A DNA stretch of 39,911 nucleotides from Neoaquamicrobium microcysteis (GTDB lineage Bacteria; Pseudomonadota; Alphaproteobacteria; Rhizobiales; Rhizobiaceae), in contig NZ_VSZS01000049.1 in NCBI RefSeq assembly GCF_008180155.1, positions 1 to 39,911 on the forward strand, read 5' to 3'. Under the pieces are notes generated by a model, which saw nothing but the letters and a program-made list of their open reading frames with translations, was not told where the DNA came from and did no database searches. Below, piece by piece: positions 4,059 through 37,075 of this stretch. Numbering within the stretch: the first letter of the stretch is position 1; each line of letters opens with the position of its first letter. Position numbers and translations under genes: made by a program.

Positions 4059-4349
4059 ATGACCGCAACGCTAGTGGAAAGCCCCGCTGTCGCAGATCGC
4101 GCACATGCGTTGCGGCTTGCCAAACAGGTCATCAGAACCCTCGATCAGAAGCCGCTCGAGCCGATCGTCGCAGCAATGCTGACTGATGGTCACAAGGCCG
4201 CGCTTTCGGCAATGGCTGTGTCGCGGGACGAGCCAAACCTGTTCGAACAGTTCCTCGTCTTGTGCGAAGAGGCCGGGCTGTTGAGCGAAGAGGATTGCGA
4301 TCAGCTGGGCGATGCCTATGTCGAAGCAAGGCGTGCCCGTGCCGCTTGA
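4059..4349 (+). CDS. Putative antitoxin partner of the Fic protein (96 aa)
   Basis: A small, acidic, helical protein (begins MTATLVESPAVADRAHALRL; C-terminus EEAGLLSEEDCDQLGDAYVE). Its stop codon overlaps the Fic gene start (ATGA at 4349), the arrangement of class I Fic antitoxins such as VbhA of Bartonella. The hallmark inhibitory motif of those antitoxins, (S/T)xxxE(G/N), is not evident, so the antitoxin role rests on position, size and coupling rather than on a motif. A DNA-binding role in repression at the palindrome upstream is also possible. An alternative is an unrelated accessory or chaperone protein for the Fic-BID effector. The start is supported by GGAG at 4046-4049. Confidence 0.55.
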   Translation: MTATLVESPAVADRAHALRLAKQVIRTLDQKPLEPIVAAMLTDGHKAALSAMAVSRDEPNLFEQFLVLCEEAGLLSEEDCDQLGDAYVEARRARAA

Positions 4350-5734
4350 TGAGTGACCCCTATCTTTATCCGGGCACGACAGTCCTCATCAATCATTTCA
4401 ACATCAGGGATCAGGCCAAGCTCGACAGCAAGGAGCGTCGGGAGACCCTGAAGACGTTGAAGGGTCTTTACGACAATCCGGTCAAAGGCGAATTCGGCCT
4501 CCCCCACCTGCTGGAAATACACCGGCGCATCTTTGCGCCGGTGTATCCGTTCGCCGGCGAAATCCGCCGCATCGATATGGTCAAGGCCGAGGAGAAGCTG
4601 GGCGGCGGCAGTGTCGAGTACGCACAGTTCCACCTGGCGCGCCTCGAGGTCGAGCACTGCCTGAAGCAACTCAATGCCAGCGATTGGTCGGGTCTCAGGG
4701 ACCTGTCCCGGCCCGAGGACATGGCCGCATTTGCCAGGATGATTGTCGATATCTGGAAGGTCCATCCGTTCCGGGAAGGCAATACGCGCACAACCATGAC
4801 CTTCATGCACCAGTTTGCGGCGGCGAAGGGCTTCGCGCTGGACCGTGAGTTGATCCGTGCGAATGCCGAATATGTCCGTCATGCGCTGGTGGTCGGCACC
4901 CATGGTGAAACCCACTATCTGACACGCATCCTCACCGACGCGCGCCAACGCGAACATGCGCGTGAGCAGAGCCAGGCACGGATGGAGGCCCAAAGCCGCA
5001 CCGACATTGGGCAGGCAGAACGGGCTGCATTGCTTCCCGGCCGGACCCTCGCCACGGAGGTTCCGAAGGTCGAGCTACTAGAACGGATCGCCGCTTCCGA
5101 AAGCGCCACCGAGGCGATGAAACGCCTTGTCGCCACGGCAAAGACGATATTCGCCGACTACCGACCGGTGATGGAAGCCATCCGGAATGCCGCTCTTGAC
5201 GGTGAGATCGGCAATCGGCAGGTGATTTCGGAGTTGCGGGATGCTCCCGAGCGGTTCGGGCCGCTTGCCGGCAGGGGCGCCATTCTTGCCAGCCGTCAGG
5301 AGCGGGAGGCACACCGCCAAGCGATCGCTGCACAGCCCAGCTTTCGCGGGATCGCCGAGAGCTACCTGAAAATCGTGCATGGAATCCGGCAGATGATGCA
5401 GCAGCAGCGTCACGACCAGGTGCGGCGGGCGGGCGTCGAGGTTCCGCAGCCGAGCGACCAGCTCATGAGCGCGCTTGATCGGGGTGATGTGCTCTCGCCC
5501 GACCTCAAGGTCGAGCTGCGGCGTACCACGAGCGCATTAGAGCGCCGTTTCGGTGATGATCTGGCAGCATTGCGTTCGGGCAAGAATCTCGGTCCACTTG
5601 CCACCAGGCACGGCGTCGACGAGAAGCAGCTCGAAGAATTGAGAGGCGTACTGAAAGCGCTTGACAGGGCCCAGGCTCAGGAGCGCACCCGGGCACAATC
5701 ACCGTCTCTGGACAGGCACGGTCCCACCCGATAA
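4349..5734 (+). CDS. Fic-domain AMPylase with BID-like C-terminus (VbhT-like)
   Basis: 461 residues. The N-terminal half is a Fic domain with the complete catalytic motif HPFREGNTR at residues 139-147 and the usual flap region near YPFAGEIR (66-73), so AMP transfer (or a related nucleotidyl transfer) from ATP to a target hydroxyl is expected. From about residue 240 the sequence is helical and includes ELRDAPERFGPLAGRG, resembling the BID domain that type IV secretion systems use to recognise Bartonella Bep effectors and the plasmid-borne VbhT toxin. The extreme C-terminus is Arg/Gln-rich, again typical of type IV substrates. It is translationally coupled to the upstream putative antitoxin and lies on a plasmid with a full conjugation channel, so it is likely to be injected into recipients or to act as an addiction toxin. 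The BID call is by eye and moderate; the Fic call is firm. Confidence 0.85.
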   Translation: MSDPYLYPGTTVLINHFNIRDQAKLDSKERRETLKTLKGLYDNPVKGEFGLPHLLEIHRRIFAPVYPFAGEIRRIDMVKAEEKLGGGSVEYAQFHLARLEVEHCLKQLNASDWSGLRDLSRPEDMAAFARMIVDIWKVHPFREGNTRTTMTFMHQFAAAKGFALDRELIRANAEYVRHALVVGTHGETHYLTRILTDARQREHAREQSQARMEAQSRTDIGQAERAALLPGRTLATEVPKVELLERIAASESATEAMKRLVATAKTIFADYRPVMEAIRNAALDGEIGNRQVISELRDAPERFGPLAGRGAILASRQEREAHRQAIAAQPSFRGIAESYLKIVHGIRQMMQQQRHDQVRRAGVEVPQPSDQLMSALDRGDVLSPDLKVELRRTTSALERRFGDDLAALRSGKNLGPLATRHGVDEKQLEELRGVLKALDRAQAQERTRAQSPSLDRHGPTR

Positions 5735-5875
5735 TTCCATGCGGCCTGGAGCGCGGCATTCAGCTGGGCCGGCCGTGCGCGGTCATTCAATTCTCCCAAA
5801 GCAATCACTTTCTAAACAATGGTTCAACATGACATTGAGGCGGGCGTATCGGTGGGGGTTCGGTGCAATACGACA

Positions 5876-6823
5876 TCATGGTTTGTTATGGGGCCAGTTT
5901 CCGCCGACTCGAACGTCAGAGATATCTTCGGAGTCGGCCTGCGCCTGCAAAGAAATGCGCCAGTCCTGGGTACGCCCTGACGCAAACTCTAGCCGATGCA
6001 CAGAACGACCTTGAGGTTCTGCGTATGAAACCTTAAGTGCCTCCTCAATCGAGACGAACTCCGGTTCGATCCACATCGCCATTCCCAAGAAGACATAGCC
6101 CAGGCGTCGAGGCCCTTCCGGAGTGTCGATAGTGACCGTTCCTGGGTAGGGAACCCGCGCAGTCCGCACGATGGGCGGCGCGCCCTTCGCTATTTCCGCA
6201 TAGGGATTTAAGGTCTCTTGAACCTTTCGCCACACGTCATTCAACGACCAACTCGTGCTGTCTTCCGCGTCATGGAAGATCGGCTGGAACAAATCCGTAT
6301 CAGGAGGAAGGACATAATCCGCGTCGTCGGGTTCGGGTACGATCTCTTCTCCAGATCGATACGTCCGAATGCCGGCTCCGGTGATGGCGCACGCCTTATG
6401 CCAGAATATCACCAGATCCAGGCCGAGCAGCGGATTGACGTCCGCCGCCGTAAGGTCTGAAACTTTGCGCAGCGAAATCCCCGCATGGGACGCGGCGATC
6501 TGAGCGTCCGAGGAAAAGCCCGATACACTGACGGCAATGGTTCGATCGGCGCCAATCGAAGTCTTCTTTGTGGCTAGCTGCTCGATCCAGGTTACGTCCT
6601 GAGTCTTCGCGCGGCGCCGACATTCGATCGTGACGAGCATTTCGGTCGTGCCCACCTTGGCTCGAATGGTGGCGTCAACTTCTCTCATCCGACCGGTGAG
6701 CTTGCAGCGCAGACGATCTGGAGACGTCACGACCAGGCCTTGGGGCCCCGCGTCGGCCTCGATCCGCGCGATCAAGCGTTCGAACTCACGCCATTCCGGA
6801 TCCCGACGATGCCGCGCGGTCAT
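5876..6823 (-). CDS. Mrr-like restriction endonuclease, third gene of the TcmP operon
   Basis: 315 residues. The N-terminal ~130 residues resemble the PD-(D/E)xK nuclease fold of Mrr-type enzymes: FERLIARIE helix, then REVDATIRAKVG (Asp50), the strand MLVTIECRRR (Glu67-x-Arg69) and a helix DVTWIEQLATKK. The last catalytic position is Arg rather than the common Lys. The C-terminal ~190 residues (from about FWHKACAITGAGIR) are unrecognised and may recognise target or partner. The ATG overlaps the tcmP stop (ATGA at 6820-6823), so the two proteins are made together. The likely role is cleavage of foreign or modified DNA under control of the other two proteins; this is inference. No transmembrane or export signals are seen. 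Confidence 0.7.
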   Translation of the reverse strand: MTARHRRDPEWREFERLIARIEADAGPQGLVVTSPDRLRCKLTGRMREVDATIRAKVGTTEMLVTIECRRRAKTQDVTWIEQLATKKTSIGADRTIAVSVSGFSSDAQIAASHAGISLRKVSDLTAADVNPLLGLDLVIFWHKACAITGAGIRTYRSGEEIVPEPDDADYVLPPDTDLFQPIFHDAEDSTSWSLNDVWRKVQETLNPYAEIAKGAPPIVRTARVPYPGTVTIDTPEGPRRLGYVFLGMAMWIEPEFVSIEEALKVSYAEPQGRSVHRLEFASGRTQDWRISLQAQADSEDISDVRVGGNWPHNKP

Positions 6824-8085
6824 TTCTTGGCGCCCCCTTTCATTCCGGCGTTCAAAAACATCGGAAAGAAGCTGATCTGCTTCTTGATTTTGATAACGTC
6901 ATCGACACCAATCGTATTGGCCTTCCTTCGCTCACCTCCGGCGGGCGTTATTACCTCTAGGTCGGGGTTCTCTATGATTGCCGCATGCACGTCGTCGGCA
7001 TGGGCAGGGGTGATGTTGTAGATGCTCTCGTAGAAATCCATGACGGGCATGGCGTTCCCGGATTCCGTGATCAGGCGCGGAATGTCCCCCAGAAGCTGAT
7101 TTTTCGCCGATGCCCGACCGCTGATATCGAAGAGGTACAGCATGCCTTCATCATGCGTTGGATCGTAGGACAGCATGTTTAGGCCTGACCGACCGAAGTG
7201 CGCCTGCAAGCTGGCGTTATCGTGAAGGATATTGTTGTAGACCTGCCTTGCTCGATAAGCGTTGGCGAAGTGAATCAGCCAATAACGCCAGCCTTCTGGG
7301 TTGTTGATCGAAAAGGGGCTGACATAGGGCGCGCATAATCGGAAAGCATCGAATACGATCTTTTCCGCAGTGCCGAGCCAGTCCTTCTGGCTCATCAGCG
7401 AATCGAGCGCCTGGACGTCAATAGTCGTCAGGCCGACATGGTCGAGTTGGGCGCGAAGCCGGTCCGGCTGGTCCTTCTGGAGGAACGCCAGCAGCGAACT
7501 GATGACGAAGGTGTAGAAGACCTCCGCCGCGGGATAGGAATGCATGATGTCGAGGATGGTGTTTCGCTCGACATGACTATGGCCGCATTGATCGAGATTG
7601 AAGATGACGCTCCGATACCGGCCTTGCTCTAGCAGGCGCTTGATATCGTGATAGGCGACTTCGAAGAACTCGTTCAGATATTCGACGCGCAAATGCAATT
7701 TCGGACAGGTTTGGCTACTCTCCGCTTGCATAGGTGCGACATGCGTCTTCAAAAGCTCGATCGCGACGCGGTTGGCGTCGTTGAAAACGAGCAGGCATTC
7801 GACTTCGACAGCGCCAAGCCCTTGGACGGCACGCTGCGTGTTCACTGCCTCGACGGCCCGTTTCAATTCCTCGATGAAAATCAACGGCGATCCGGGCGAG
7901 CCGCACTGATATCGCCCCCCGCCGGCAAAACCGTCGACAATGGCGAGCCGAAACCGCTCTTGCTGAGGTAGCCTGCAGCGCACGGTCAGGTAGTCGAAGA
8001 CATATTCACGTAGTATTTTATGTTTGCGGCGTGAGTGCTCCTCGAGCTTTGCCCCATCGGCCCATTCGTATCGCTTCTCGACCAC
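6820..8085 (-). CDS. tcmP: Three-Cys-motif partner protein TcmP
   Basis: 421 residues, starting at a GTG (MVEKRYEWADGAKLEEHSRR) behind a purine-rich GGGGGGAAG. The family signature is clear: EEHSRRKHKILREYV, then LAIVDGFAGGGRYQCGSPGS, a glycine-rich motif like the S-adenosylmethionine site of methyltransferases, and later FNLDQCGHSHV in the position of the catalytic motif. TcmP proteins are found next to proteins with a three-cysteine motif, and here that partner (DUF5131) lies 27 bases upstream. The biochemical reaction of the pair is not established; a nucleic-acid methyltransferase-like activity is a fair guess from the motifs. The 3' end overlaps the nuclease gene. Length is in the usual range. 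Confidence 0.85.
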   Translation of the reverse strand: MVEKRYEWADGAKLEEHSRRKHKILREYVFDYLTVRCRLPQQERFRLAIVDGFAGGGRYQCGSPGSPLIFIEELKRAVEAVNTQRAVQGLGAVEVECLLVFNDANRVAIELLKTHVAPMQAESSQTCPKLHLRVEYLNEFFEVAYHDIKRLLEQGRYRSVIFNLDQCGHSHVERNTILDIMHSYPAAEVFYTFVISSLLAFLQKDQPDRLRAQLDHVGLTTIDVQALDSLMSQKDWLGTAEKIVFDAFRLCAPYVSPFSINNPEGWRYWLIHFANAYRARQVYNNILHDNASLQAHFGRSGLNMLSYDPTHDEGMLYLFDISGRASAKNQLLGDIPRLITESGNAMPVMDFYESIYNITPAHADDVHAAIIENPDLEVITPAGGERRKANTIGVDDVIKIKKQISFFPMFLNAGMKGGAKK

Positions 8086-8112
8086 CTGCGCTTCCCCCCG
8101 ACAGATACTATC

Positions 8113-8901
8113 CTACATTCTAGCCGCGTCCTGCGGGGTTGCTGGCATCTCGTCCCAAGTGCGGCCGCGATACTCACGACCGTTGGCCTTCTTGGAGCGC
8201 TTTTTGTTGTCCTTACCCCAGGTCCCCCACTGCTTGAAGAAGAAGGCGGTGCCGGCGGTCAGACATTGGCCGTAGATTTCATCGATCCATTCTTCCCTGA
8301 TCGGCCGAGCGGATTTGCCGCTTTCACCGCCCACGATTGCCCAATGAATGTCACGCAGATCGACAGCGCCGACCGATCCAATCAGTGGCTCAAAAGATAT
8401 GAAGCGAATGGCTGCGGGCGCCTGGCGGAGGTAGTCGACACGGCTCACGACATCTGCATTTTCGATACTAGTGCCAAGCCAGACATTAGGCAGGATGTCG
8501 TCCATCTGCGAGGCGACAAGCGCTGACATTCGTTCGGGGCGCTTTGTAAGGATCTGATAGTTGTGGCGCGGCGTCTCGCGCATGACCTTCCAGACGCCGA
8601 GGATGAATTCGTCGCTGACGCCCTCGTGGAAGAGATCGCTCATCGAGTTTACGAAGATCTTCCGCGGCTTTTTCCACCCATAGGGAATAGAAAGTGCCTC
8701 GCGGTCCTCCCGCACGACGCCATTCCACACCGTGCGCTTGCCCGTTTTTCGAGTGAGACCCGCATATTTTCCGATGCCCATAGCCTCAAGGCGCTTGGCC
8801 ATCTCCATCGCATAACAATGGGTGCAACCCGCGGTGACGATCGAGCATCCTGCCACGGGATTCCAAGTGGAGTCTGTCCACTCTATCTGAGTTTCAGCCA
8901 T
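8113..8901 (-). CDS. DUF5131 (phage Gp37/Gp68-type) three-Cys-motif protein
   Basis: 262 residues. Starts MAETQIEWTDSTWNPVAGCS; the three cysteines are Cys19, Cys26 and Cys29 (C-x6-C-x2-C), reminiscent of the iron-sulfur site of radical-SAM proteins although the spacing is not the classic CxxxCxxC. Other family blocks present are KIFVNSMSDLFHEGV, ILTKRPERM, LGTSIENADV, IRFISFEPLIG and WAIVGGESGKSARPI. The family occurs in phages and mobile elements and is paired with TcmP. GGGAGG lies just upstream of the ATG. It heads a three-gene operon with tcmP and the Mrr-like nuclease. The role could be a base or RNA modification or repair-like reaction; nothing in the sequence decides it. Confidence 0.88.
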   Translation of the reverse strand: MAETQIEWTDSTWNPVAGCSIVTAGCTHCYAMEMAKRLEAMGIGKYAGLTRKTGKRTVWNGVVREDREALSIPYGWKKPRKIFVNSMSDLFHEGVSDEFILGVWKVMRETPRHNYQILTKRPERMSALVASQMDDILPNVWLGTSIENADVVSRVDYLRQAPAAIRFISFEPLIGSVGAVDLRDIHWAIVGGESGKSARPIREEWIDEIYGQCLTAGTAFFFKQWGTWGKDNKKRSKKANGREYRGRTWDEMPATPQDAARM

Positions 8902-9573
8902 CTTGCCTCCCGAACTCTTCTGTCAATCGATCGTTTAGCCTACTGAATGAGAACGTGGAATTCGTTATTGATACACGCCGGCAACTACTAGTTCATACGA
9001 ACTCCTGTGGAAATTCCGCGCGAATTCTCTGCGTGTCCGGTCAAATAATGCCCGCTGGTAGAGCCCAGTGTCAGCTCCGATCTGGTTGAGCCTCATGCGA
9101 CACCGGCCAACAATACCTTCTTCTGGCGCAACCGCCACGTCCAGAACGGTCGACAGCAACGTTCGCTCTCAGGCAGCGGCAAAGGTGAAATCAACGGCGG
9201 GCATGAGGCGCATTACTGCCATTCGAGATGCAGACAAGAAAGGTCACCGATGGGTCATGGCGTCGCGTTGCTGGCCGATCGGCAAAGGTCAGCAACGGGT
9301 CCGAATGCCGAAATCCGAGTCCTTGCCGGGAGCCAGCCACGTCGGTTTTGTCGTGATGCTCGAATGATGATCCCCCTTTTCGTCAGCGAGAATCGTTGCG
9401 TGAGCCGCCGTCATGCGGCCAAGGCACAGAGTCCCGTGCCGTCCCTGTTTTCCACCCCGCCGTCGGCGGGGCGGAGCGCAGCGGAGCAGGCGAGGGGGCT
9501 GAACGCGCTCCCCATATAGCGCCGAAGAGAAGCCCCCGAGCTTGTGGTAAACCGGGGCGGGACGGCTGCCGTT
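8902..9573. other. 672-bp gap between the TcmP operon and traG
   Basis: It must contain the promoter of the DUF5131-tcmP-nuclease operon. A 14-base inverted repeat AGTTC-ATAC-GAACT (8990-9003) lies about 90 bases upstream of the DUF5131 start and could be an operator. A 64-codon minus-strand frame at 8965-9159 has some protein character (VLDVAVAPEEGIVGRCRMRL) but no recognisable family and may be a remnant. A hairpin CCCCGCC-GTC-GGCGGGG (9455-9471) lies downstream of traG but lacks a T-run in either direction. Confidence 0.4.
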
Positions 9574-11505
9574 TTAGGATCCAGCCGCTCCCGACTTCGG
9601 CTGGAAGCTGCTCTTGCCGACGAGCGCCGCCATTTCCGGACGGCGGAAGTAGATGGCGCGACCGCACCGCAGCGGCGGGTTGCCACCGGTCAGGATGATC
9701 TGCTCATCGGCGCGCATCTGGGTGACTTCATGCGGCAGGATCAGCGGGCGTTGCGAGAGCTGTTGAGAGCGGGTGCGGGACGAACCCATGTCGCGCGAGG
9801 TTCGGCTGACCTGGTTCACCTCCACGGTGGTCATGCCGCAGCGCTCGGAGATGTACTTCGCTGTCTCCGGATCGTTGATGGCCGAGAACGACACCCAGGA
9901 CGCGGACTCGAACCATTTGCTGGTCGCATCGCGCCCGCCGAAGGCTTCGCGCATCTGACCGAGTGACTGGAACAGCATCAGCAGGGTGATGCCATATTTG
10001 CGGCCAGCATCGCGGGCGGTTTCGATGATGCGCATGTAGCCGAGGCGGGCGGCCTCATCGAGAAGGAACAGGGCGCGTTCCTGCATGTCTCCGTTGCGAT
10101 TGTAGATTGCCTTGAGGAACGCACCGATGATGACACGGGCCATGCCGGGATGATTTTCGAGGGTCGAGAGATCGATGTTGATGAACACGGTGGTGCGCCC
10201 GTTGGCGATGTCGTCGGTCCTGAACGTGTTACCCGACACGATGGCCGCATAGCTGTCGTAAGACAGCCAATGCGTCTCCTTGGCGGCCGTCGCATAGACG
10301 CCCGAGAAGGTTTGCGGCGTCATGTTGATGAAGGGGGCGATGACCTCCTTGACGAACCGGGAGGTCGAGCTTTGATAAAGATCGGCGAGCTTTTCCTTGA
10401 GCGTTTCTTCCGGCTCGGCCAGCCGCGCGCGCACGACGCGCAGCGATCGTTCGCGCTTGGTATCGTCCGGATCGGACAGCATCACGTCGGCGATGACGCC
10501 GGTGATGAGCTGTTCGGCTGAGACGCGGAAGAAATCGTCCGCGCCGGACGTGACGCGCGGTCTCTCCGACATCAGCCACGCCGCCACGGAGGCGATGTCT
10601 TCCTCCGGCGCATTGCCGAAGCGGCCGATCCAATCGAGCACATTGAAGCCGATGTCGGGTCGTTTCGGATCGAGAACGAGCACGTCCTGCCCATGCGCCT
10701 CGCGGTGCGCGGCGACCATGGGGGCAATCTCGGTCGAGGGATCCAGAACGATCAGCGAGCCCTTGAACTTGAGCGCTGTGGGCACAACCATGGAGGTGGT
10801 CTTGTAGCCACCGGAACCGGCGAAGACGATGCCATGGGTCGAACCGAAGCCGCAATCGAAGCAGACGAGCGGTGATCTTCCGCCCTTGCCCCAGGTCTCC
10901 TTGAGACGCGGATCGAAGTTGACGCCAGCAACGGAATCCTCGTCGACGCGATAACGTTCACCGAGGACGATGCCGCCGCTTCCGGCAAAGAGACGAGCCG
11001 TTGTGGCGCTGTCCATCCAATGGCTGTCGCCATGGATGGCGCGACGGCCGGAGAGCCGTTTTGGACCTGTCGCTCCAAACGCGGCATTGCCGCGCAGCGC
11101 AACCCGCAATCCGAACATGCCGGCGACGAAGGCCGTCGCCGCGCCGCCGATGGGGTAGAGGTCGAGGTAGGAGAATATCGTTCCTTCGGGCACCTGGTTG
11201 GCGAAGGCGGACAGGCGCGTCATCTCGGACAACGCTGCGAAGACGACGGCGGCAAGGCCGCCGATCAGGACGCCGAGGCCGGCCGACTGAATTGCAAGTG
11301 AGCCATTCGCGGCGAATAGGAAGATGACACCGATCGCGGCGGCAGCTGCATAGGGCAGGGCAAGACCGATCCGCCCAAGCGTCTGATAACTCTCCGGCGA
11401 ATTCCCGAATGACGCAAGCCAGGTCTCAATCCCCTGGAGCGCGAGCACGATCCCCAACATCATCAATGCCGGTGCGGCCAGCAGCATCAGCTTCTTTGCT
11501 GTCAT
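9574..11505 (-). CDS. traG: Conjugal transfer coupling protein TraG (VirD4 family)
   Basis: 643 residues, the normal length for rhizobial TraG. The N-terminus has membrane segments (about 7-26, 47-67, 74-94 and 120-138), then comes the cytoplasmic ATPase with Walker A GSGGYKTT at 230-237 followed by LIVLDPSTE, and Walker B in [13 protein letters not shown]. It is a hexameric inner-membrane ATPase that brings the TraA-DNA relaxosome to the Trb type IV channel. The start [16 protein letters not shown] at 11505 matches the family N-terminus and overlaps the last 80 bases of traD. It is the last gene of the traC-traD-traG operon transcribed away from oriT. Confidence 0.96.
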
Positions 11506-11716
11506 TGTCGAATATCGCCTTTCCGATTGCGGTCAATCGTGCGCGCTCTGTCGCGTCGCCGAGCCGCGCCACCGCGTCAATGAGGGCGCCGAGAATGACG
11601 GCGCGATCCTCGCTGCGAAGCCCCGCCTTTATGATGAGCCCGCCGAGCTGGATCTTTTCGCGCGCATCCTTCTTCCGGGCTTCCGCCTGTGACGCCCGGT
11701 AGCGGCGTTCATGCAT
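11426..11716 (-). CDS. traD: Conjugal transfer protein TraD (oriT accessory)
   Basis: 96 residues from the ATG at 11716 ([20 protein letters not shown]). TraD family hallmarks are the basic helical N-terminus and the [21 protein letters not shown] block. It is a small cytoplasmic protein of the DNA-processing set in Ti-type plasmids. The start lies inside the end of traC, and the 3' end overlaps traG by 80 bases, so the last ~26 residues are longer than in many homologues. The upstream in-frame extension to 11821 duplicates traC coding sequence in another frame and is not used. Confidence 0.88.
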
Positions 11717-11957
11717 CAGAAGCGTCCGCTTGAGAGCGAGCAGCCGGCTCGGACTTCTTCTGCCTCGTTCCCGTTTGAAATCGCTTTGCCATCTCTTCGA
11801 AGCCAGCGACCAGCTCGGCATCGGACGCGCTCACGTCGCCCAAACCCGCCTTCAGCGCCAGTCGACCGATGCGTTCGGCCTCTTTGGCTTCGGCAAGTTT
11901 CAGCTGCTCCTGCAGGCGTTCGATTTCTTCTCGGATGCGGGAAGTGGGTCGTCTCAT
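11709..11957 (-). CDS. traC: Conjugal transfer protein TraC (oriT accessory)
   Basis: 82 residues beginning [20 protein letters not shown], a coiled-coil-like heptad region, followed by [20 protein letters not shown], then an ERF-type basic tail. TraC family proteins help TraA at oriT of Ti-like plasmids. GGAGAA precedes the ATG with normal spacing. It is the first gene of traCDG and faces the oriT region; its promoter should overlap the dyads at 12013-12061. Confidence 0.88.
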
Positions 11958-12012
11958 CAGCTTGGTTCTCCGGTTTCGTAGATGGTCGATGCGATCCGGA
12001 GAATCGCATTGC

Positions 12013-12030
12013 ATGTGCGCGGAGCGCACC
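12013..12030. promoter_or_regulatory. 18-bp dyad resembling a Ti tra box
   Basis: GTGCGC-GGA-GCGCAC within ATGTGCGCGGAGCGCACC. The outer positions (ATGTGC...GCAC) match the outer part of the Agrobacterium TraR binding site, which is also an 18-bp dyad, and the location between divergent traC and traA promoters is where that box is found on Ti plasmids. The centre differs. Confidence 0.4.
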
Positions 12031-12046
12031 CTGGGAAAAACCACAG
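12031..12046. promoter_or_regulatory. Candidate TraR box 1 (traC/traA-oriT gap)
   Basis: CTGGGAAAAACCACAG, 13 of 16 positions identical to the perfect dyad CTGTGAAAAGTCACAG upstream of traI (37138-37153). It abuts the dyad at 12013-12030 and precedes the hairpin at 12047-12061. Confidence 0.5.
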
Positions 12047-12156
12047 GTAGGCGCAGCCTACGCATTTCGGGAAGAATCCCGCCGTTCGGAAGAACGGTCC
12101 AAGGGCGCAGTAATACGTTGCAAGCAACGTCGCTGCGTTCGGCCCCGAGGGGGGCC
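12047..12156 (-). other. oriT: Origin of transfer (oriT) with flanking hairpins
   Basis: The core CCAAGGGCGCAGTAATACG (12099-12117) read on the minus strand ends in CTGCGCCCTTGG, the conserved nick region of RSF1010/Ti-type oriTs, next to the inverted repeat ACGTTGC-AA-GCAACGT (12115-12130). By analogy the nick would fall between minus-strand bases paired to 12106 and 12105 (TGCG^CCCTT). Further stem-loops surround it: GTAGGC-GCA-GCCTAC (12047-12061), CGGGA-AGAA-TCCCG (12068-12081), CCGTTC-GGAA-GAACGG (12082-12097) and GGCCCC-GAGG-GGGGCC (12141-12156). The place, between traC and traA, is the standard one. Confidence 0.9.
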
Positions 12157-12205
12157 GCGCTCGACCGAACAGCATTCGCGTTCGGATCGAGAAAGCACCT
12201 GTCCC

Positions 12206-15200
12206 GTGGCGATCACCCACTTCACGCCTCAACTGATCAGCCGCGGCGAAGGCCGCAGTGCTGTTGCGGCGGCAGCCTATCGCCATTGCGCCCGCATGGA
12301 GAACGAGCGCGAAGGCAGGGTGGCGGACTTCTCGCGCAAGCCCGGCATGGTCCATGACGAGTTCGTGTTGCCGACCGATGCGCCGGACTGGGCGAGGACT
12401 CTTATTGCCGACCGCTCGGTTGCGGGAGCATCGGAAGCCTTCTGGAACAAGGTGGAGGCGTTCGAGACCCGCAGGGACGCGCAACTTGCCAAGGAGTTTA
12501 TTCTGGCGCTGCCGCGCGAGCTGACCACCGAGCAGAATATCGCAATGATGCGCGAGTTCGTCGCCGAGCATGTCAGCACGCGCGGGCTGGTCGCGGATTG
12601 GGTCTATCACGACGCGCCGGGCAATCCGCATGCGCATCTGATGACGACATTGCGCCCGCTGACCGAAGAAGGTTTCGGCGGCAAGAAGGTGCCGGTCATC
12701 GGAGAAGACGGACAGCCGGTCCGGTCGAAATCCGGCCAGATCGTGTACAAGCTCTGGGCAGGTGACAAGGCCGACTTCCTCGCATTGCGGGAAGCCTGGT
12801 ATGCCGCCCAGAACAAGCATCTCGAATTGAACGGCCATGACATTCGTGTCGATGGCCGCTCCTATGCCGAGCGCGGCATCGATTTTGAACCGACTTCGCA
12901 TATCGGTGTTCAAGCCAAAAACATTCAGCGGGAGGCAGAGGCTGAAGGGCGCGAGGCCAGGCTTGAACGGCTCGCGTTGCACGAGGAAACGCGGCGCGAG
13001 AATGCGCGCCGGATAGAGCGCCGACCGGAGATCGTACTGGACGCGATCGCGCGCGAGAAGAGCGTCTTCGACGAGCGGGACGTCGCCAAATATCTGCACC
13101 GCTATGTCGATGATCCCGGCCAGTTCGCGAACTTGTTGGCGCGCGTCATGGGAAGCCCGGAAGCCGTGAAGATCGAGGCGGAAGGGGTCGATCCGGAAAC
13201 CGGCGAGCGACTGCCGGAGCGTTTTGCGACGCGTGACATGATCCGCATTGAAGCCGAGATGGGGTATCGGGCCGAGCATCTCGCGACGAACGGCCGGTTC
13301 GGTGTCTCAATGAGCGCGCGCGCCGAAGTCATTGCCGGCCAGACGCAGATTTCCGACGAGCAGGGCATCGGTCTGGAACGCATCACCGGGGACGAGCGCC
13401 TTGCCATCATCGTCGGCCGCGCCGGCGCCGGCAAGACCACCATGATGAAGGCCGCGCGCGAGGTATGGGAGGCTTCGGGCTATCGCGTTGTCGGCGGGGC
13501 GCTCGCCGGCAAGGCGGCCGAAGGTTTAGAAAAGGAGGCTGGCATTGCCTCGCGCACGCTCGCGTCATGGCAATTGCAATGGGAGCGGGGCCGTCTTCAC
13601 CTGGACAAAAGATGCGTGTTCGTGATGGACGAGGCGGGCATGGTGTCGTCGCGCCAGATGGCGGACTTCGTTTCGGCCATTGCCCATGCCGGCGCCAAGC
13701 TCGTTCTTGTCGGTGATGCCGACCAACTGCAGCCGATCGAGGCGGGCGCTGCATTCCGCTCGCTCGCCGATCGCGTCGGCTATGCCGAGCTCGGCACGAT
13801 CTATCGTCAGCGCGAGCAATGGATGCGCGATGCCTCGATGGATCTTGCCCGAGGCAAGATCGGCGCGGCGATCTCCGCCTATCAGAGGCGGGGGCGCTTG
13901 ATCGGAATGGAGTTGAAGGACCAGGCGGTCAGCGCGCTCGTCCGCGACTGGATTGCCGACTACGACCCGAACCGGTCGAGCTTGATCCTTGCGCATCTTC
14001 GCCGCGATGTGCGGACACTGAACGAGCTCGCACGTGGCGCGCTTCTCGAGCGTGGTGTGATCGAGCAAGGCCATGCCTTCCGCACCGAGGACGGGATGCG
14101 GAACTTCGCTCCCGGCGATCAGATCGTGTTCCTGAAGAACGAGGGTTCGCTTGGCGTCAAGAACGGCATGATCGGCCGCATCATCGAGGCCGAGAAAGGG
14201 CGCTTCGTCGCCGAGGTCGGCGATGGAGGTGGTCCGGGCGACAGACGGCGTGTGGAGGTTGACCAGCGGTTATATCGCAATGTCGACCACGGCTATGCGA
14301 CCACCATTCACAAGTCCCAGGGCGCCACCATCGACCGGGTGAAGGTGCTGGCCACGCTCTCGCTCGACCGGCACCTGACCTATGTGGCGATGACTCGCCA
14401 CCGGCATGACGTGAAGCTTTATTACGGACGCCGCTCTTTCGAGAAGGCGGGCGGGCTCATCCAGAATCTCTCCAAGCGCGGGGCCAAGGACACGACGCTC
14501 GATTTCGCCGGATCGAAGCTCTACGAGCAGGCGCTTTCCTATGCCAACAGTCGCGGCCTCTACGGCGCGCGTGTGGCGAAAGCCCTGGTCGAGAACCAGC
14601 TCCGTTGGATCAGGGAGCAGCGCGATCGGCTCGAGACGGCCGCCGCCAGGCTTTCAATTTTCATCGGGCGGTTCGGTCGTGCCGCCGATCGTCAGGCAGC
14701 GGCTGCCGCGACCGCGACTGCTGCTCCCGTTTCCCAGCCCTGGATTCGCGGCCTCGCGACCTGGGCGCAATCCATCCCGCAGCTCGTGGAGGCCAAATTG
14801 CAATCAGACGCCACGCTTACCCATGCCTGGACCCAGCTTCGCGACCGCGTTGCCCAAGTCTATGAGAATCCCGATGGCGCTATTGATGCGATGAACCTTT
14901 CCGCAATCATGAGCGCCAGTGAAGCGGAAAGGCAAACAGCGCAAACCCGCATCCTCGACCAGCTCGGTCGCGATCCGGAGGCCTACGGTGAGTTGCGCGG
15001 CAAGACCGGCATGTTCGCATCGGCTGTCGCCAAGGCGGAACGGCAGCGGGCCTTGAACAACGTTCCGGCACTCAAGGACAACCTTGCCCGCTATGTGCGG
15101 CTACGCGCCCAGATCGGAGATCTTCGCACCGTCGAATTGTCGCGCGAGCGTGACCGCAGCCGCGTCGACATTCCTGCATTGTCCGGATCGGCGCAGGGCG

Positions 15201-18287: not shown

Positions 18288-21200
18288 TCAAATGGTGAGG
18301 ATTCGTGAAAGTGTTGCGACCCACGACTTTAGATTGCTGTTTGCAGTCGCCGCGTCCCTAAGCTCCTTCTCCGTGTGTGCGACGTAGGTGTTGCGGAAAT
18401 CGTTCACGGCCGACACCTCGTTGAGGAACGAGCGAGCGCCGTCAAATCTGAATGCCGCGGTGATGGCTTCAAAAACTCCGCCGATCTTGGACTTGTCGTT
18501 CAACGCGAAATCCAAACACGAGCGCAGCAAGCCAATGACAGAATGCGGGTTTCCATAAACCAAACCGCGCTTCAGATTCTTCGCCATGTTCTCGTAATGC
18601 TTCAGGTTCTTTTTGTCAGCATCGCCCATATAAGGCTCGAACCAATCGCGCTGATCTACCGGAGTTGTGGGCAGGTTGCCTTGCAGGCGCTTGACAATCG
18701 TTGTCTTGCAGGCCTCATCGTATGGTCCAAGGAGGGCGCTAAAGACAGGGGCGAAGTTCGGGGCTTCCTCTTTCTTCTCAAAAAAGCGGTACAGTTCGAG
18801 AGCGTCGGTTGCGGCCTTCTTTGCGCGCAGCGGCAGCGCGTGGAACACCTCTTTGCCAAAGAAGATTTCCGCGTCGTCGTCGGAGCGCGGTCCGAAAAGC
18901 GGCAGCTCTGGCTGCGATGTCGTTTCGCTCAAGAGATTCTGGAGCGCAGGCACGCAGGCACGAGCAAGGTCGGCGAAGCGGTTGCCGGTTAAGCGCTCCA
19001 TCACGTTTTGCGGGGTAAAAACATACTGCCATTTTACGGTGCCCTTCGACGCCGCCTTGCACCATTCGATGGCCGCCATTGCCTTGCGCGGGACATCGCT
19101 GTCCTGACGTCCCTTGGTCTCGACAAGCGAATATTCGCCGTTGTCCATCCGGACAAAGAAGTCCGGGCGATAGAAGGCAAGGCGCTGGTCCGCGGTCAGA
19201 TAGTCGATACGAAGTGCTTGTGGCCCGGCATTTTTCGCGAAAGCGCCAACGTCCGAGCAATTGTCGAGAAAGGATGTCATTGCCACTTCAAGCGACTGAT
19301 CACATGGCACCAGATTGAAGAGCGTATGTTTCGCTTTCTCGACGGGCTTCCGCTCGGAGAGCGTTGCCTGATATGGTTTCCAGTTTCGCAGCTGGATCGC
19401 CGTGCCCTCAGACCGGCGCTTTTCGGTCTTCACCGTGCGCGCCCGAATCAACGGAATGAAAACCGCACGGATGTGCTCGCGCACGTCCTGATCAGCAAGC
19501 CGGCCCGTGAGCCGTGTATCAAACAGCCCGACCTTCTCGGAAAAGAGGATTTCGGAAAGGAACGTCTGAAGCAGCGGCGCCAACACAGGATGGGTGGACT
19601 GCACCTTGCAGGCAGCTTCCAGCTCGCGGACGTAGAAGGAAATTGCTGTCGCGCCGTTCTGGAGGAGCGGGAGGCTGATGTTCATCACTTCGATCACCTC
19701 GTCGGTGATCAGGTGACGGCCCTCGTAGACGACGTCCACGCCCCCTTTGCTGCCGAGCGGTAGCGGCGAGTACCGTTTGAAGGCGCTTTTCACGTCCTCA
19801 TGCGTAATCCCTTCGAGCTTGGGCTGGACCTCGTGCGCGGCAGTGAGCGCCGGGAGAACGATATCCAGTGCGGGGAGGTCCTTGGTCTCGTCGGGAAAGA
19901 TGGTGACGGTTGTCGCCGGAACCTTGTCGGTATCCAGCACTTCGATGGGCAGGCCTTCTTGCTCAAGTTCCTGCTCATAGAGGCTTGAAAAAGCCGGATG
20001 CTCAACGACGGTTACAAGTTCGTTGGCCTGCCCCGGTGGTGTCATGCGCCGCAGCCCGCGCCCAAGTGTCTGCTCCGGCAGAATATTGGCCTTTGAGCTG
20101 TAGGGGCGGAGCGGCACGATTGTCGTCACGTTGCGAACGTCCCACCCTTCCCGCAGCATCAGAACGGACACGATGCACGAGTACGGACCATCCGACTTGT
20201 CGAGCTCACGGCTGATACGCCGTAGGGCCTTCAGATTCTCGTCGTTGATGTCCTTGTCGCTCTCCTCAAAGACCTCGATGGTCTGGCCGCCGATATTACG
20301 CTTCTTCACCGTGCCCTTGAGGTTCGTATGAAGATTGATCGTCTTGCCGTTCAGCTCAGCAAACACGCCATCGGCATTGAGGCGGTTGGTGATCTGGTTC
20401 GCCGACTCGGTGTCCGTACACATGACAAACAGCAGCGGCTTTTTCCCGCTCTTTTCCCATTCCGTCCGGCTTCGCTTCCAGCGCTCATAGCCAAGACGCA
20501 GGTGCGCCTCGTAGCGGTAGGCCGCATCGTCATGCGCCTGCTCGACCAGTTCTTTGGTGCGCCCGATGATCGGCGTCTTGACGATCCCTGCATCAACCGC
20601 CTCACCCAATGGCGTGTCGCACACAACGTGAGGGAAGATGCGACCCTTGTTGTCCTTGGGAGTGGCAGAGAAATCGAGTTGTGCAGTAAGACCGTTGCCC
20701 GAGCGCTTGCGCACTGTCTCATGCAGCCAGCGGATGGCCTCGCTCCATGCCGAACCGGGGTCCCAAACGTGGTGTGCCTCGTCGTTCAGCACCATAATGC
20801 GCGAATGCGAAGTGATCCGCTCGCGAAGCTCAGCACCCGTGTCCAAAGCCTTCGATTTGGAAACCGCTGGGCCTGCCCAGTCGTAGGTTTCAGCTCCCGG
20901 TCTGCGACCACTGCGCGGCTCGAACAACCGATGAATATTGGTCAGGTAGAGAACCCCGCCGGTGCTTGCGCCGCTTGCCTCGTCCTGCAAGACAACCGTG
21001 AAATTCCAGTCACCGCGCCATTCTGGGGGAATGAGCGGATCCGTCATAAAGATATCCGGCCCACCGCCTTCTGGGCGGAAGTCCTCCTTGAGACGCTCGA
21101 ACACCGTCAGGTTGGGGGCAACGATGACGAAATGTTTCGCCATCTCGGAGCCGCTTTCGCGCAAGGCGTGGAAATAGCTCCACACGATCGCTAGGCTCAT

Positions 21201-21701
21201 GCACTTGGTCTTGCCAGCGCCGGTCGCCAGCTTGAACGCATAGCGCGCCCACTCGTCATCCTCGGGTTTGATGCCGAGGGCTTCCGTTTCCGCGTTGGGG
21301 CCGCCGTATTCAAAGATAAGGGATGACAGAGAGGCCATACCCCGGACTTCGGTCAGGTAAATAAGCGTCTCGATGGCCTCACGCTGGCAGAAGTAGTAGC
21401 GGAAATCGAACTCCTCGCCGCCGCCGCCGATCAGCCGGTGCGGTCGCTCGAACCAATATCCGAGAAGCTCCCGGGTCGTGTCGCTCGCGCCGAAATAGTT
21501 CAGTTCGCGCCATTCTTTCACGGCGGCCCGAAGCGGGTTCACCATCCGTATCGGGGATTGGCGACGGTAGGTTTTGATCTCCGGCGGCTGGCCCTTCTTG
21601 GCGCGCACCCTGTGCTTGCTCGGCTCCTCCCAAGGGGCGAAGAGCGGTTCGAGCGCAGCGGCGTTGATCGAAATGCTGTCGGGCGTGGTGGTCTCGGTCA
21701 T
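18288..21701 (-). CDS. Type III-like restriction subunit (Res): helicase, PD-ExK nuclease and C-terminal HEPN-like extension
   Basis: 1137 residues. Superfamily 2 helicase motifs: Walker A ATGAGKT 159-165, DEAH 307-310, SATP 345-348, REGWDV 517-522, QTLGRGLRR 544-552. A nuclease site follows: PD at 846-847 in YRPDFFV and ETK at 861-863 in SLVETKGR. About 270 more residues follow, more than many Res proteins have, all helical, ending with NDFRNTYVAHTEKE, where Arg1103 and His1109 form an R-N-x4-H motif like that of HEPN ribonucleases. The gene overlaps mod by ATGA (21698-21701). It should translocate on unmodified DNA and cut it with Mod supplying recognition. The HEPN reading is my inference. 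Confidence 0.9.
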   Translation of the reverse strand: MTETTTPDSISINAAALEPLFAPWEEPSKHRVRAKKGQPPEIKTYRRQSPIRMVNPLRAAVKEWRELNYFGASDTTRELLGYWFERPHRLIGGGGEEFDFRYYFCQREAIETLIYLTEVRGMASLSSLIFEYGGPNAETEALGIKPEDDEWARYAFKLATGAGKTKCMSLAIVWSYFHALRESGSEMAKHFVIVAPNLTVFERLKEDFRPEGGGPDIFMTDPLIPPEWRGDWNFTVVLQDEASGASTGGVLYLTNIHRLFEPRSGRRPGAETYDWAGPAVSKSKALDTGAELRERITSHSRIMVLNDEAHHVWDPGSAWSEAIRWLHETVRKRSGNGLTAQLDFSATPKDNKGRIFPHVVCDTPLGEAVDAGIVKTPIIGRTKELVEQAHDDAAYRYEAHLRLGYERWKRSRTEWEKSGKKPLLFVMCTDTESANQITNRLNADGVFAELNGKTINLHTNLKGTVKKRNIGGQTIEVFEESDKDINDENLKALRRISRELDKSDGPYSCIVSVLMLREGWDVRNVTTIVPLRPYSSKANILPEQTLGRGLRRMTPPGQANELVTVVEHPAFSSLYEQELEQEGLPIEVLDTDKVPATTVTIFPDETKDLPALDIVLPALTAAHEVQPKLEGITHEDVKSAFKRYSPLPLGSKGGVDVVYEGRHLITDEVIEVMNISLPLLQNGATAISFYVRELEAACKVQSTHPVLAPLLQTFLSEILFSEKVGLFDTRLTGRLADQDVREHIRAVFIPLIRARTVKTEKRRSEGTAIQLRNWKPYQATLSERKPVEKAKHTLFNLVPCDQSLEVAMTSFLDNCSDVGAFAKNAGPQALRIDYLTADQRLAFYRPDFFVRMDNGEYSLVETKGRQDSDVPRKAMAAIEWCKAASKGTVKWQYVFTPQNVMERLTGNRFADLARACVPALQNLLSETTSQPELPLFGPRSDDDAEIFFGKEVFHALPLRAKKAATDALELYRFFEKKEEAPNFAPVFSALLGPYDEACKTTIVKRLQGNLPTTPVDQRDWFEPYMGDADKKNLKHYENMAKNLKRGLVYGNPHSVIGLLRSCLDFALNDKSKIGGVFEAITAAFRFDGARSFLNEVSAVNDFRNTYVAHTEKELRDAATANSNLKSWVATLSRILTI

Positions 21702-23749
21702 ACTTCGATCTCCACGGAAATGCTGGTGTCGCAGCCGAACACATCCACCACCTTGACGCAGGCCGTGTATTTTCCCGGCTTGTTGTAGGAAAAGTCGGCA
21801 TCACTGATCGTTTTCAAGGAACGATCCTTGCGGGTGCGATAATCCTGCCAGTGGTGATTGAACGGCTTGTCTGGAGCCCAATCGAAATCGACGGCCCAGA
21901 AGTCGATGAAATCGAAACCACTCGTCATTGCGCGTTCTTGAAGCGCCTCAAGCTCCTTGGAGGGAACCTCGGTCAGGCTCGGCAGGAAGCTTTTCAGCTT
22001 GATCTCAACGGTCTTGCCCTTTGGCGCATTTCGGAGGACAGGCTCGGCCTCCAGAAGCGCCACTTCAAAAAAGGGCGGAACTTCGGTACGGTTTTTCTCC
22101 ATAATCTCGCGCGGGATGCGGTGCAGCCGGATCTTGACGTCAAGTTCCGACTCAATTCCGGCTATTGTCTGCCGAATGTCCATCTCGAAGTCCCAAGCAA
22201 GGCAATGAACTTGCTTGCCACCAGCAGCCTTGACGGCTAGTGCAACAGCCTTCGCTTCTTCGCCCGAAAAAATACTGTCGATGCCGTCAACGTGAACGAA
22301 TGCCGCTGCTTTCCGTCCATGAATCAGCGGCGATGGCGCATGAGGCAATGGTTCTGCGCGAAAGAACCGCAACACCACTTTGTGATGTTCATCTTCGGCC
22401 CCCTTCAGAATGTCGCGCTGCCACCATTGCCGCTCGTAACGTCCCAAATTGAAGACATCAAATGACCGGTAGCGCCTGCCCTGCTCATGCAACTCCCGCT
22501 GTACTCCGATCAGTCGCTTCCGGCTTGTATGAACAGCAAAACGGCCGAGATCGGCACCAATCCAGCGACGCCCGAGTTTCTCGGCGACGGCTAGCGTTGT
22601 CCCTGATCCGCAGAAGAAATCGACCACAAGATCACCTTCGCTCGTCGCGCAATTGATGATTCTTTCTAGTAGCGCCTCCGGCTTCTGTGTTGCGTATCCC
22701 AAGAGCTCGGCTGAAACCGGATTGACCGGCGGAATGTCATCCCAGATAGACTGTACGACCGTGCCGTCCATCTCATCGAGGTATTGCTTTATATTAGGCT
22801 GCCCGGTGCGAGCAAACACGATCTTGCCGCTCTTAAGGCCTTCGTCTATTCGTTGCTGCCCCCAGGCCCAGTGCCTACCCGGAGGCGGATCGATAACTCG
22901 ATCGCCAAACTTCCGCGCGGGGCCAGGCCCCGCTGCACTCAGTGTGACCAGCCTGAACCGGCGTCCATTCTCGTCAACCTGACCATAGTGCGACTTGATA
23001 TAAGAATCATCGTGCGGCTTGTGTTGCCTGAAAAACGAGTAATTCTCGCTATTGGAGTACATCAATAAGCAATCGTGAATAATACCAAATCTCTTAGCAT
23101 CACTATGGGCATGCGTTCTCTTCCAAATTATCTCATTCAAAAAATTATCACGGCCAAACACATCATCCATGAGCACCCGAACAAGATGATTTATGTTTGA
23201 GCCAATGTGGACAAAAATGATCCCATCCTCGGATAGCAATTCCCTTGAAAGAATTAGTCGTTCATATAGCATATGCAAATATGAGTTTGTTCCTTTGCCC
23301 CACATGTCCCTGTATGCGACCATCTCAAGTATGGATTGATCTTTCTCGGCGGTTTCCTTTCCATCACCGATAGCCACACTTAAACTAAAATCTGTTCCAA
23401 TGTCGAACGGGGGGTCAATATAGATTAGCTTCGCCGCCCCTTTGAATTCTTCAAGTAACGCGGCAATGACTGCCCTATTGTCACCCCAGATAAGCCGATT
23501 CCTAAAATCGTCAGCGTGTGCACGAGCGTCGTCAAACAATGTTCCTTGAGCCTTGGCTCGCGACTGCGGCCAGTCAATTGCCTCGGTTCTCTGCAAAGGC
23601 ATCGACAGGTGGGCGACATTCACCTCCCGTCGGTTGCCGAATTCGTCATACTTCCCTTCCCAAACCAGTTCGGTGCGCATCTGCGACAGCGGATGAGGGT
23701 TGCTCGGGCCATAGGTGATGTTGGGCTTATCGGACATGCGCGATCTCAT
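21698..23749 (-). CDS. Type III-like adenine-specific DNA methyltransferase (Mod)
   Basis: 683 residues. The beta-class motif order is seen: catalytic DPPF at 112-115 (LIYIDPPFDIGTD) first, then S-adenosylmethionine motif FCGSG at 379-383 (VVDFFCGSGTTLAVAEKLG). The region between them (about 200-345) is the expected target-recognition part, and the C-terminal 280 residues probably contact Res. It methylates adenine in the recognition site and guides Res. It starts at 23749 by ATGA overlap with the WYL gene; an ATG at 23737 (MSDKPNITYG) is an alternative. The part encoding residues about 190-250 (near 23041-23220) is strikingly AT-rich, 67 G/C in 180 bases, against a GC-rich background, pointing to recombination within the gene. 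Confidence 0.93.
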   Translation of the reverse strand: MRSRMSDKPNITYGPSNPHPLSQMRTELVWEGKYDEFGNRREVNVAHLSMPLQRTEAIDWPQSRAKAQGTLFDDARAHADDFRNRLIWGDNRAVIAALLEEFKGAAKLIYIDPPFDIGTDFSLSVAIGDGKETAEKDQSILEMVAYRDMWGKGTNSYLHMLYERLILSRELLSEDGIIFVHIGSNINHLVRVLMDDVFGRDNFLNEIIWKRTHAHSDAKRFGIIHDCLLMYSNSENYSFFRQHKPHDDSYIKSHYGQVDENGRRFRLVTLSAAGPGPARKFGDRVIDPPPGRHWAWGQQRIDEGLKSGKIVFARTGQPNIKQYLDEMDGTVVQSIWDDIPPVNPVSAELLGYATQKPEALLERIINCATSEGDLVVDFFCGSGTTLAVAEKLGRRWIGADLGRFAVHTSRKRLIGVQRELHEQGRRYRSFDVFNLGRYERQWWQRDILKGAEDEHHKVVLRFFRAEPLPHAPSPLIHGRKAAAFVHVDGIDSIFSGEEAKAVALAVKAAGGKQVHCLAWDFEMDIRQTIAGIESELDVKIRLHRIPREIMEKNRTEVPPFFEVALLEAEPVLRNAPKGKTVEIKLKSFLPSLTEVPSKELEALQERAMTSGFDFIDFWAVDFDWAPDKPFNHHWQDYRTRKDRSLKTISDADFSYNKPGKYTACVKVVDVFGCDTSISVEIEV
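23041..23220. other. AT-rich segment inside mod
   Basis: Counted directly: 20, 23 and 24 G/C in the three consecutive 60-base lines from 23041, about 37 percent, while the flanking genes are clearly above 55 percent. It lies between the two methyltransferase catalytic motifs and keeps the reading frame. Confidence 0.7.
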
Positions 23750-36442: not shown

Positions 36443-37075
36443 TCAGGCCGCGGCGGCTTCAACAGCGGCCGGGAAAAGGGGGAGGTAGCTCGACGGCCGC
36501 ACCAGCGCGAGACTGGCTTCGTCGGCAGGTAGGAGGCCCGCGACAGCAATGGTATTGCCGACGGGATGTGGAGACCCGAGCCGCTCCAGTGGCCACTTCG
36601 CGCGGGTGAGGATGCGCTCAAACCGAACGTCCGTAACGGTGACGATCCGGTCGAACCCATTGGCCATCGACCATTCGATGATGCCGGCGAACAAGGTGTG
36701 CGTGGCGTCGCGCAGTCCGCTCGCGGAGACAATGCCGCTGCGTTCGGTGTCAATGCAAAAGCGCGAACTCTCGACAACGCTGCTCGATTGGGGCATGCGC
36801 GCAACGTCAGCCAGGAACGGAAATGTCTGACCGAGCATCGTCGGGCCGGTGGACGGAAGCAGCCGGGCGCAACCGATCACCTGACCATCGTGGCCGACGA
36901 GCACGAGGTAGGTCGGATCGAGCTGGTCGTATTCGTCCTTTTCCTGGTTGTGCTCTACGTGGACGTCCCAATCCAACCTGTGCTTGAAGACCCTGGCGCG
37001 CAATTCATGCATGCGCTCGAGCAGACGTTGCTCATTACTTGTTGCCCTCATGCGGCAAATGGCGACGACGCGCAT
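36443..37075 (-). CDS. traI: TraI, acyl-homoserine lactone synthase (LuxI family)
   Basis: 210 residues. All invariant LuxI-family positions are present: Arg26 and Trp36 (ARVFKHRLDWDV), Glu45, Asp47 and Asp50 (EKDEYDQLDP), Arg71 (CARLLPSTGPTMLG), Glu102 and Arg105 (VVESSRFCID). It makes an acyl-homoserine lactone from acyl-ACP and S-adenosylmethionine, the ligand of the TraR-like regulator. AAGGA lies eight bases before the ATG. It heads the trb operon, and the dyad at 37138-37153 is 62 bases upstream, so expression is expected to be autoinduced. Confidence 0.95.
   Translation of the reverse strand: MRVVAICRMRATSNEQRLLERMHELRARVFKHRLDWDVHVEHNQEKDEYDQLDPTYLVLVGHDGQVIGCARLLPSTGPTMLGQTFPFLADVARMPQSSSVVESSRFCIDTERSGIVSASGLRDATHTLFAGIIEWSMANGFDRIVTVTDVRFERILTRAKWPLERLGSPHPVGNTIAVAGLLPADEASLALVRPSSYLPLFPAAVEAAAA

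Follow-up and report, generated by a model that had tools for sequence, protein, structure and literature searches.

The window analysed here, a 39,911-nucleotide contig of Neoaquamicrobium microcysteis (NZ_VSZS01000049.1), carries a three-gene operon, the triad, in which a gene pair encoding a DUF5131 protein (gene A) and TcmP (gene B) is joined to a gene for an Mrr-type nuclease (gene C). We tentatively read the triad as a mobile, modification-restriction-like cassette, in which the pair would make a base mark and the nuclease would attack unmarked nucleic acid; we take this as a real possibility, somewhat short of probable. The gene order, the overlap of B with C, the conservation of the arrangement and the variable slot that holds it are observed directly, as is the RlmJ-like fold in the predicted structure of TcmP. 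A nuclease is joined to the pair, and the product of the pair is therefore predicted to be a mark on nucleic acid. The pair occurs widely in bacteria and on plasmids and phages, and the triad gives a handle on its function.

The triad recurs with an overlapping nuclease gene

All three genes lie on the minus strand (Table 1), with 27 bases between A and B and an ATGA overlap between B and C. This layout had been given in an initial annotation of the DNA and is exact to the base; the Cys19-x6-Cys26-x2-Cys29 motif that it noted in A and the VDGFAGGG and FNLDQCGH motifs in B are present, its family names hold as profile matches (PF07505, TIGR04474 and PF04471), and the C-terminal half of gene C, which it called novel, has no Pfam match at E up to 1.

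The nuclease was sought on contigs of 84,980 species (one genome each) with two short peptide patterns, which is why the scan reaches close relatives only. Six loci were found. The complete order A-B-C is present in three of them, from Aurantimonas (L072), Celeribacter (L073) and Paenirhodobacter (L076), the last with a gene C shortened to 188 amino acids and a TcmP nearly identical to that of L073. L073 comes from Celeribacter baekdonensis B30, and its three triad reading frames are all open. Together with the window and a locus of genome G160 (L009), the A-B-C loci total five, all with a four-base overlap of B and C, which at the four other loci reads ATGA in three and GTGA in L009. Linkage of the nuclease to tcmP in the window only, a possibility raised with the initial annotation, is ruled out by these further loci. 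L074 keeps 63 residues of a TcmP tail directly before the nuclease, and L075 and L077 hold nuclease pieces that lack a start, with no tcmP. A nuclease gene that has kept its start thus adjoins tcmP (whole, or as the tail in L074) at six of six loci, and the complete pair at five of six. Searching 12 pair-only loci for remnants of gene C returned none with E below 0.05, and among 82 TcmP loci, read by eye from printed starts, gene C (five loci) is the only recurrent next gene seen on the same strand as the pair. The triad is rare and real, and is seen here only in Alphaproteobacteria.

Between the window and L072, the ratio of nonsynonymous to synonymous substitution rates (dN/dS; Nei-Gojobori method, own script) is 0.033 for A, 0.05 for B and 0.084 for codons 1-107 of C. 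The arrangement is more than chance, given its recurrence elsewhere, at four loci with a four-base B/C overlap, and the low dN/dS values.

The DUF5131-TcmP pair is known and mostly lacks the nuclease

In a class sample of 385 genomes of Alphaproteobacteria, TcmP is present in 29, at 30 places. DUF5131 stands in the same locus at 29 of these places, directly beside TcmP in all but L047, where 0.8 kb separates the two; the sole place without it (L059) begins at a contig end. DUF5131 proteins are encoded by 50 of the 385 genomes, and the family therefore also exists apart from TcmP. Gene C accompanies two of the 29 pairs, and 27 are without it. The pair reaches further into mobile elements. Among 85 viral or phage DUF5131 loci (the best 80 of at least 581 confirmed IMG/VR relatives, plus five chosen phage records), TcmP lies beside DUF5131 in 39, in several orientations; 35 of the other 46 have 1.5 kb on both sides, and in some cases the contig may end before a TcmP gene is reached. 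Relatives of gene B occur in 62 plasmid records, 28 of them typed conjugative. Nine plasmid TcmP loci were read (L084-L089 and L175-L177), and five have defence-type neighbours: AbiE; CBASS-like genes; a type ISP enzyme; a DNA methyltransferase/helicase/GIY-YIG set; and a CHAT protein plus a helicase with DUF1837. The remaining four show a caspase-family gene with dgt, a helicase, transposases and other genes only, and a record without annotation.

The pair is already named as a PADLOC defence candidate (PDC-M30) and is not new. Gene A matches PDC-M30B (E=3e-94) and, slightly better, PDC-M41B (E=7e-100), gene B matches PDC-M30A (E=7e-22), and A and B are adjacent; none of the PADLOC models picks up gene C at E up to 1. 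In PMC10855318, PDC systems are described as putative and not validated, and PDC-M30 is predicted in 32 of a panel of 100 P. aeruginosa strains, 68.8% of these being counted as phage-resistant, a correlation only. An expression table in PMC12445080 lists the S. meliloti TcmP gene SMa2243 next after hna. A literature search, with subscription papers and preprints outside its scope, found no study of what the pair or the triad does. Nor did the literature searched contain what is new here, namely the joined nuclease, its family-specific domain, the RlmJ-like and spore photoproduct lyase (SPL)-like assignments of the pair, and the putative domain exchange described below.

A general proximity of DUF5131 to phage C5-cytosine methyltransferases, which would point to a cytosine substrate, was considered and set aside as too weak to use: such genes lie near eight of the 46 loci without TcmP, three of the eight having supplied the queries, and near two of the 39 with it (the eight include L092, L093, L094 and L133). 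Several gene arrangements around the pair deserve mention in their own right. A dGTPase-type (HD domain) dgt gene directly follows tcmP on the Phaeobacter plasmid pP14_b (L088, 6251-7693) and could be another effector. On one viral contig, DUF5131 and a helicase C-terminal domain share a reading frame (L159, 6072-8216). A second, divergent TcmP gene lies on the opposite strand beside the pair in L175 (8666-9442), L177 (7267-8178) and L086 (6266-7192); it adjoins a DEAD/DEAH helicase gene in L175 and is close to one in L177.

Both members of the pair resemble enzymes that use S-adenosylmethionine

Gene A matches PF07505 with E=3.8e-100 (334.8 bits; curated cut-off 28.9), and its three motif cysteines are retained in all 126 DUF5131 alignment rows with letters there (153 rows in total, 27 gapped there). 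Their spacing, CX6CX2C, is stretched relative to the CX3CX2C of radical S-adenosylmethionine (SAM) enzymes. Nine of the host genome's ten radical-SAM proteins were compared with DUF5131 as single sequences, along with 60 control open reading frames (ORFs), and the PA0069-family protein alone stands out, with a score of 14%. Against an alignment of the PA0069 family, DUF5131 scores 41-48% (E ~2e-4); C19, C26 and C29 fall on CX3CX2C inside an NP..GC..GC..C.A block common to both, and a TKR/TKS block is in register. Gene A further matches TIGR04471 (E=1.4e-20) over residues 77-223, outside the cysteines. On account of the PA0069-alignment and TIGR04471 matches, DUF5131 is likely an SPL-like radical-SAM protein in origin, as far as sequence comparison can tell, and its chemistry would presumably be of the radical-SAM kind. 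The PA0069 and Rv2578c families are ones that we take to be linked to SPL; from these, DUF5131 differs in its wider cysteine spacing, in its lack of a PF04055 match and in having a methyltransferase as partner.

Gene B matches TIGR04474 with E=1.4e-64 (218.6 bits; curated cut-off 53). Its predicted structure shows an RlmJ-like methyltransferase fold, found by a second structure aligner and not by Foldseek, and the nearest folds include many RNA methyltransferases (RlmJ, Trm1, Trm5a and METTL16). We therefore predict, from this model, that TcmP is a nucleic-acid methyltransferase resembling RlmJ, with a winged helix at its C-terminus. RlmJ itself (PF04378) is the 23S rRNA m6A2030 methyltransferase, and the host genome encodes its own RlmJ besides TcmP. 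TcmP is distinguished from it by a D-[PQ]-x-G motif in place of DPP[FY] (the residue after D165 is P in 37 rows, Q in 16 and S in 1), by the winged helix and by its DUF5131 partner; gene B does not match PF04378 at E up to 1. Kinship of TcmP with the phage C5 methyltransferases was rejected, the profile comparison giving only 1-16%. No solved relatives of genes A, B or C were found by sequence at E up to 1. The two assignments name residues to mutate, and the predicted mark would be directly accessible to mass spectrometry.

Gene C joins an Mrr domain to a family-specific half that may have been exchanged

The N-terminal domain of gene C matches PF04471 (Mrr_cat) with E=8.6e-8 and 32.7 bits, above the Pfam cut-off of 21, as do Mrr-type restriction endonucleases, and D50 and E67 are retained in the triad-family nucleases. 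The order of helices and strands in its AlphaFold model fits a PD-(D/E)xK core, at low model confidence. Gene C departs from these endonucleases in reading ECR where they have ECK, in its own C-terminal domain and in having tcmP next door. In the class sample, the profile of the C-terminal domain matched two genomes of 385, which are the two triad genomes, and that of the whole protein found four further genomes, in addition to the window's and G160, in the Mrr part only. A phylum sample of 398 genomes likewise gave four partial matches besides the window's own genome, again confined to the Mrr part, and viral scans returned one distant relative (residues 32-153) and then none.

The two halves appear to have different histories. 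DNA identity between the window and L072, taken per 100 bases, is 78-93% across A, B and the initial 320 bases of C, then 48-66% over the rest of that gene. In the protein, a single change point fits best at residue 119, near the end of the Mrr domain, with 109 of 118 residues identical before it and 98 of 196 after it (log-likelihood gain 33.8). For the C-terminal half from the window, the closest counterpart is in Caulobacter (L075; 59%), whereas L072, L009, L073 and L074 have C-terminal halves closest to each other (65-69%). These identity patterns suggest that the C-terminal half was exchanged at the domain border, much as a specificity domain would be. The dN/dS of this half is 0.13-0.24 in the six of ten comparisons with unsaturated dS.

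A possible modification-restriction system and its alternatives

In the reading that we favour, DUF5131 and TcmP would be SAM-using enzymes that, in turn or together, modify a base of DNA or RNA, most probably adenine. As a complete unit, the pair would be able to live alone, like solitary modification enzymes, and in one alphaproteobacterial lineage it would have gained an Mrr-type nuclease gene overlapping tcmP. The N-terminal domain of gene C would act as the nuclease module, the family-specific C-terminal half would read the target, and the nuclease would attack nucleic acid without the pair's mark. We infer, for the pair, its substrate (DNA or RNA) and the chemistry of the modification and, for gene C, nuclease activity and its direction. 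Such a restriction-modification (R-M) reading fits the asymmetry of the distribution, because most pairs lack the nuclease and the start-intact nuclease is found with the complete pair at five of six loci. R-M and Dnd/Dpd modification genes also occur without their restriction genes; like them, the triad has a modification module that is common alone and a nuclease found almost only with the module, whereas its enzyme types are others, with no common family shown beyond the nuclease superfamily. The triad thus looks like a putative new design of a modification-and-restriction system. A narrower version, in which a radical-SAM protein and an RlmJ-like methyltransferase make a new DNA base modification and the Mrr nuclease carries an exchanged target-reading half, the first system of its kind, strikes us as doubtful. 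The initial annotation had proposed that the pair makes or senses a nucleic-acid modification and that the nuclease acts on DNA without, or with, it. What stands of this is a conserved coupling, a mobile cargo slot and a resemblance of both partners to SAM enzymes with nucleic-acid-acting kin; it has to be qualified in that the pair was already known (PDC-M30/M41), mostly occurs without the nuclease and is joined to a nuclease with Arg for the canonical Lys.

Several observations weigh against the R-M reading. Arg69 takes the place of the Lys of (D/E)xK in all six triad-family nucleases that cover the site; cleavage by gene C is therefore not assured, and, with Arg in five and Lys in five of ten other relatives, the group may lack activity or rely on a catalytic residue that has migrated. 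The nuclease ORF of L074 is open without a whole tcmP, a poor fit to R-M, in a draft metagenome-assembled genome near a contig end; together with Arg69 it speaks against R-M, or for a silent gene. The AlphaFold model of gene C, made from six sequences, is too poor to confirm a fold (predicted local distance difference test score, pLDDT, 49.2; predicted template-modelling score, pTM, 0.37), and because the model is unreliable the PD-(D/E)xK fold rests on the profile match. The assignments of the pair have contrary evidence as well: PF04055 (radical SAM) is unmatched by gene A at E up to 1, the scores of eight of the nine radical-SAM proteins against DUF5131, 0.1-2.0%, are close to those of the controls (median 0.13, top 1.2%), and Foldseek gave no convincing match for TcmP, with RlmJ absent from its top 50. 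As to history, five triad rows of a 23-row TcmP tree fall in a seven-row group (support 86/81) with the pair-only L045 and L087, and the tree requires three changes for the triad, not one (for example one gain and two losses, in L045 and L087), so that a single origin is not settled by it. The exchange of the C-terminal half may also have been one chance recombination.

Pointers to the substrate diverge, since the closest structural relatives of TcmP are RNA-acting enzymes whereas the Mrr nuclease family acts on DNA. An RNA substrate is possible because RlmJ methylates rRNA, and the many RNA methyltransferases among the nearest folds, along with the retention of solitary pairs in many hosts and mobile elements, would suit an RNA-based defence, in which the pair modifies tRNA or rRNA and the Mrr-like effector fires when infection disturbs the mark or the enzymes, killing or stalling the host; we consider this rather unlikely, though on the same footing as the narrower version above. 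The frequency of the pair on viral contigs and phages and on plasmids, the ArdC gene of the window's element and the Lys-to-Arg change in gene C could alternatively mean that the pair disguises the DNA of its carriers from restriction, with gene C as its guide, a DNA-binding partner that is non-catalytic or weak. The defence-type neighbours at five of nine plasmid TcmP loci suit defence at least equally well, and D50 and E67 are kept in the triad family, so we hold such an anti-restriction role to be unlikely. E. coli Mrr is a modification-dependent enzyme, and the faster-evolving C-terminal half of gene C could be a reader of modified bases; gene C might then be a type IV-like addition that cuts foreign DNA bearing other modifications, with the pair as a co-transcribed companion whose mark is tolerated. 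Against this, gene C was seen attached to a single TcmP clade, and in the class sample its C-terminal domain matched only the two triad genomes, which makes it quite improbable in our view.

The triad occupies a variable slot of a conjugative element

The initial annotation placed the operon on a conjugative plasmid beside other defence genes. The contig does carry Ti-type conjugation genes (TraA, TraF, TraG, TrbI, CagX, TrbL, TrbE and a VirB11-type ATPase), and it is probably a plasmid, judging by its close kin pSR2 of Aminobacter sp. SR38, to parts of which its backbone is 89-90% identical. ArdC, a Fic-BID protein and type III R-M genes are indeed on the same contig. The slot that holds the triad contains an exonuclease-domain gene and a helicase gene in pSR2 and other genes in six other related plasmids. 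The G+C content is 0.569 in the triad and 0.634-0.636 in the flanks; as to flanking repeats, there is no common 10-mer between 5701-5900 and 8881-9600.

Table 1. Features of the triad and of the element that carries it, in window coordinates
Feature	Position	Strand	Remarks
Gene A, DUF5131 (PF07505)	8113-8901	-	SPL/PA0069-like, radical-SAM-type protein (likely), 262 amino acids, ATG start
Gene A, C19-x6-C26-x2-C29	8815-8847	-	Co-linear with CX3CX2C of PA0069 radical SAM
Gene B, TcmP (TIGR04474)	6820-8085	-	Predicted RlmJ-like SAM-dependent methyltransferase fold, 421 amino acids, GTG start
Gene B, motif I D51-G-F-A-G-G-G	7915-7935	-	G55 in 54/54 rows, D51 in 53/54
Gene B, motif IV-like L-D165-Q-C-G	7582-7596	-	D165 in 54/54 rows; aligned with RlmJ DPPF
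Gene B, C-terminal GMT-like winged helix	6937-7167	-	PF22560, 21 of 27 bits, below Pfam cut-off
Gene C, Mrr-type nuclease of triad family	5876-6823	-	315 amino acids, ATG start
Gene C, Mrr_cat domain, residues 10-124	6452-6796	-	PF04471
Gene C, acidic partner D50	6674-6676	-
Gene C, E67-C68-R69	6617-6625	-	Arg at usual catalytic Lys position
Gene C, C-terminal domain, residues 119-315	5879-6469	-	Triad-family nucleases only; apparently exchanged relative to L072
Cargo slot, 3.5 kb, holds triad	5776-9250	.	pSR2 homology stops at 5775, resumes at 9251
ArdC	1618-2556
Fic + BID domain protein (VbhT-like)	4262-5734		NF045983 E=1.2e-25, below model cut-off
Type III R-M genes	18288-23749		9.4 kb from triad

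The neighbours of the triad differ among loci. In L072 it is accompanied by an integrase, a type ISP enzyme and a PIN gene; in L073, and likewise in L076, by a serine recombinase and, 15 bases upstream, a PIN gene; in L009 a serine recombinase lies near it. The PIN-domain (VapC-type) gene is directly upstream of the triad in L072 (1752-2183), L073 (3342-3773) and L076 (2593-3024); tblastn found none in the window or in L009. Near the triad of G160, L009 encodes at 11069-12685 a P-loop kinase-like part fused to an adenylosuccinate-synthetase-like part, beside a DUF7002 gene.

Elsewhere on the window's element, the Fic-BID protein is of a toxin type that may travel via the element's own secretion system. 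The type III R-M genes, with a WYL-domain gene, form a second variable place after TraH (18288-24639), where pSR2 has SNF2/DUF1156/DUF499 genes. Ti-type transfer is quorum-regulated, and an autoinducer synthase gene (36443-37075) ends the trb cluster.

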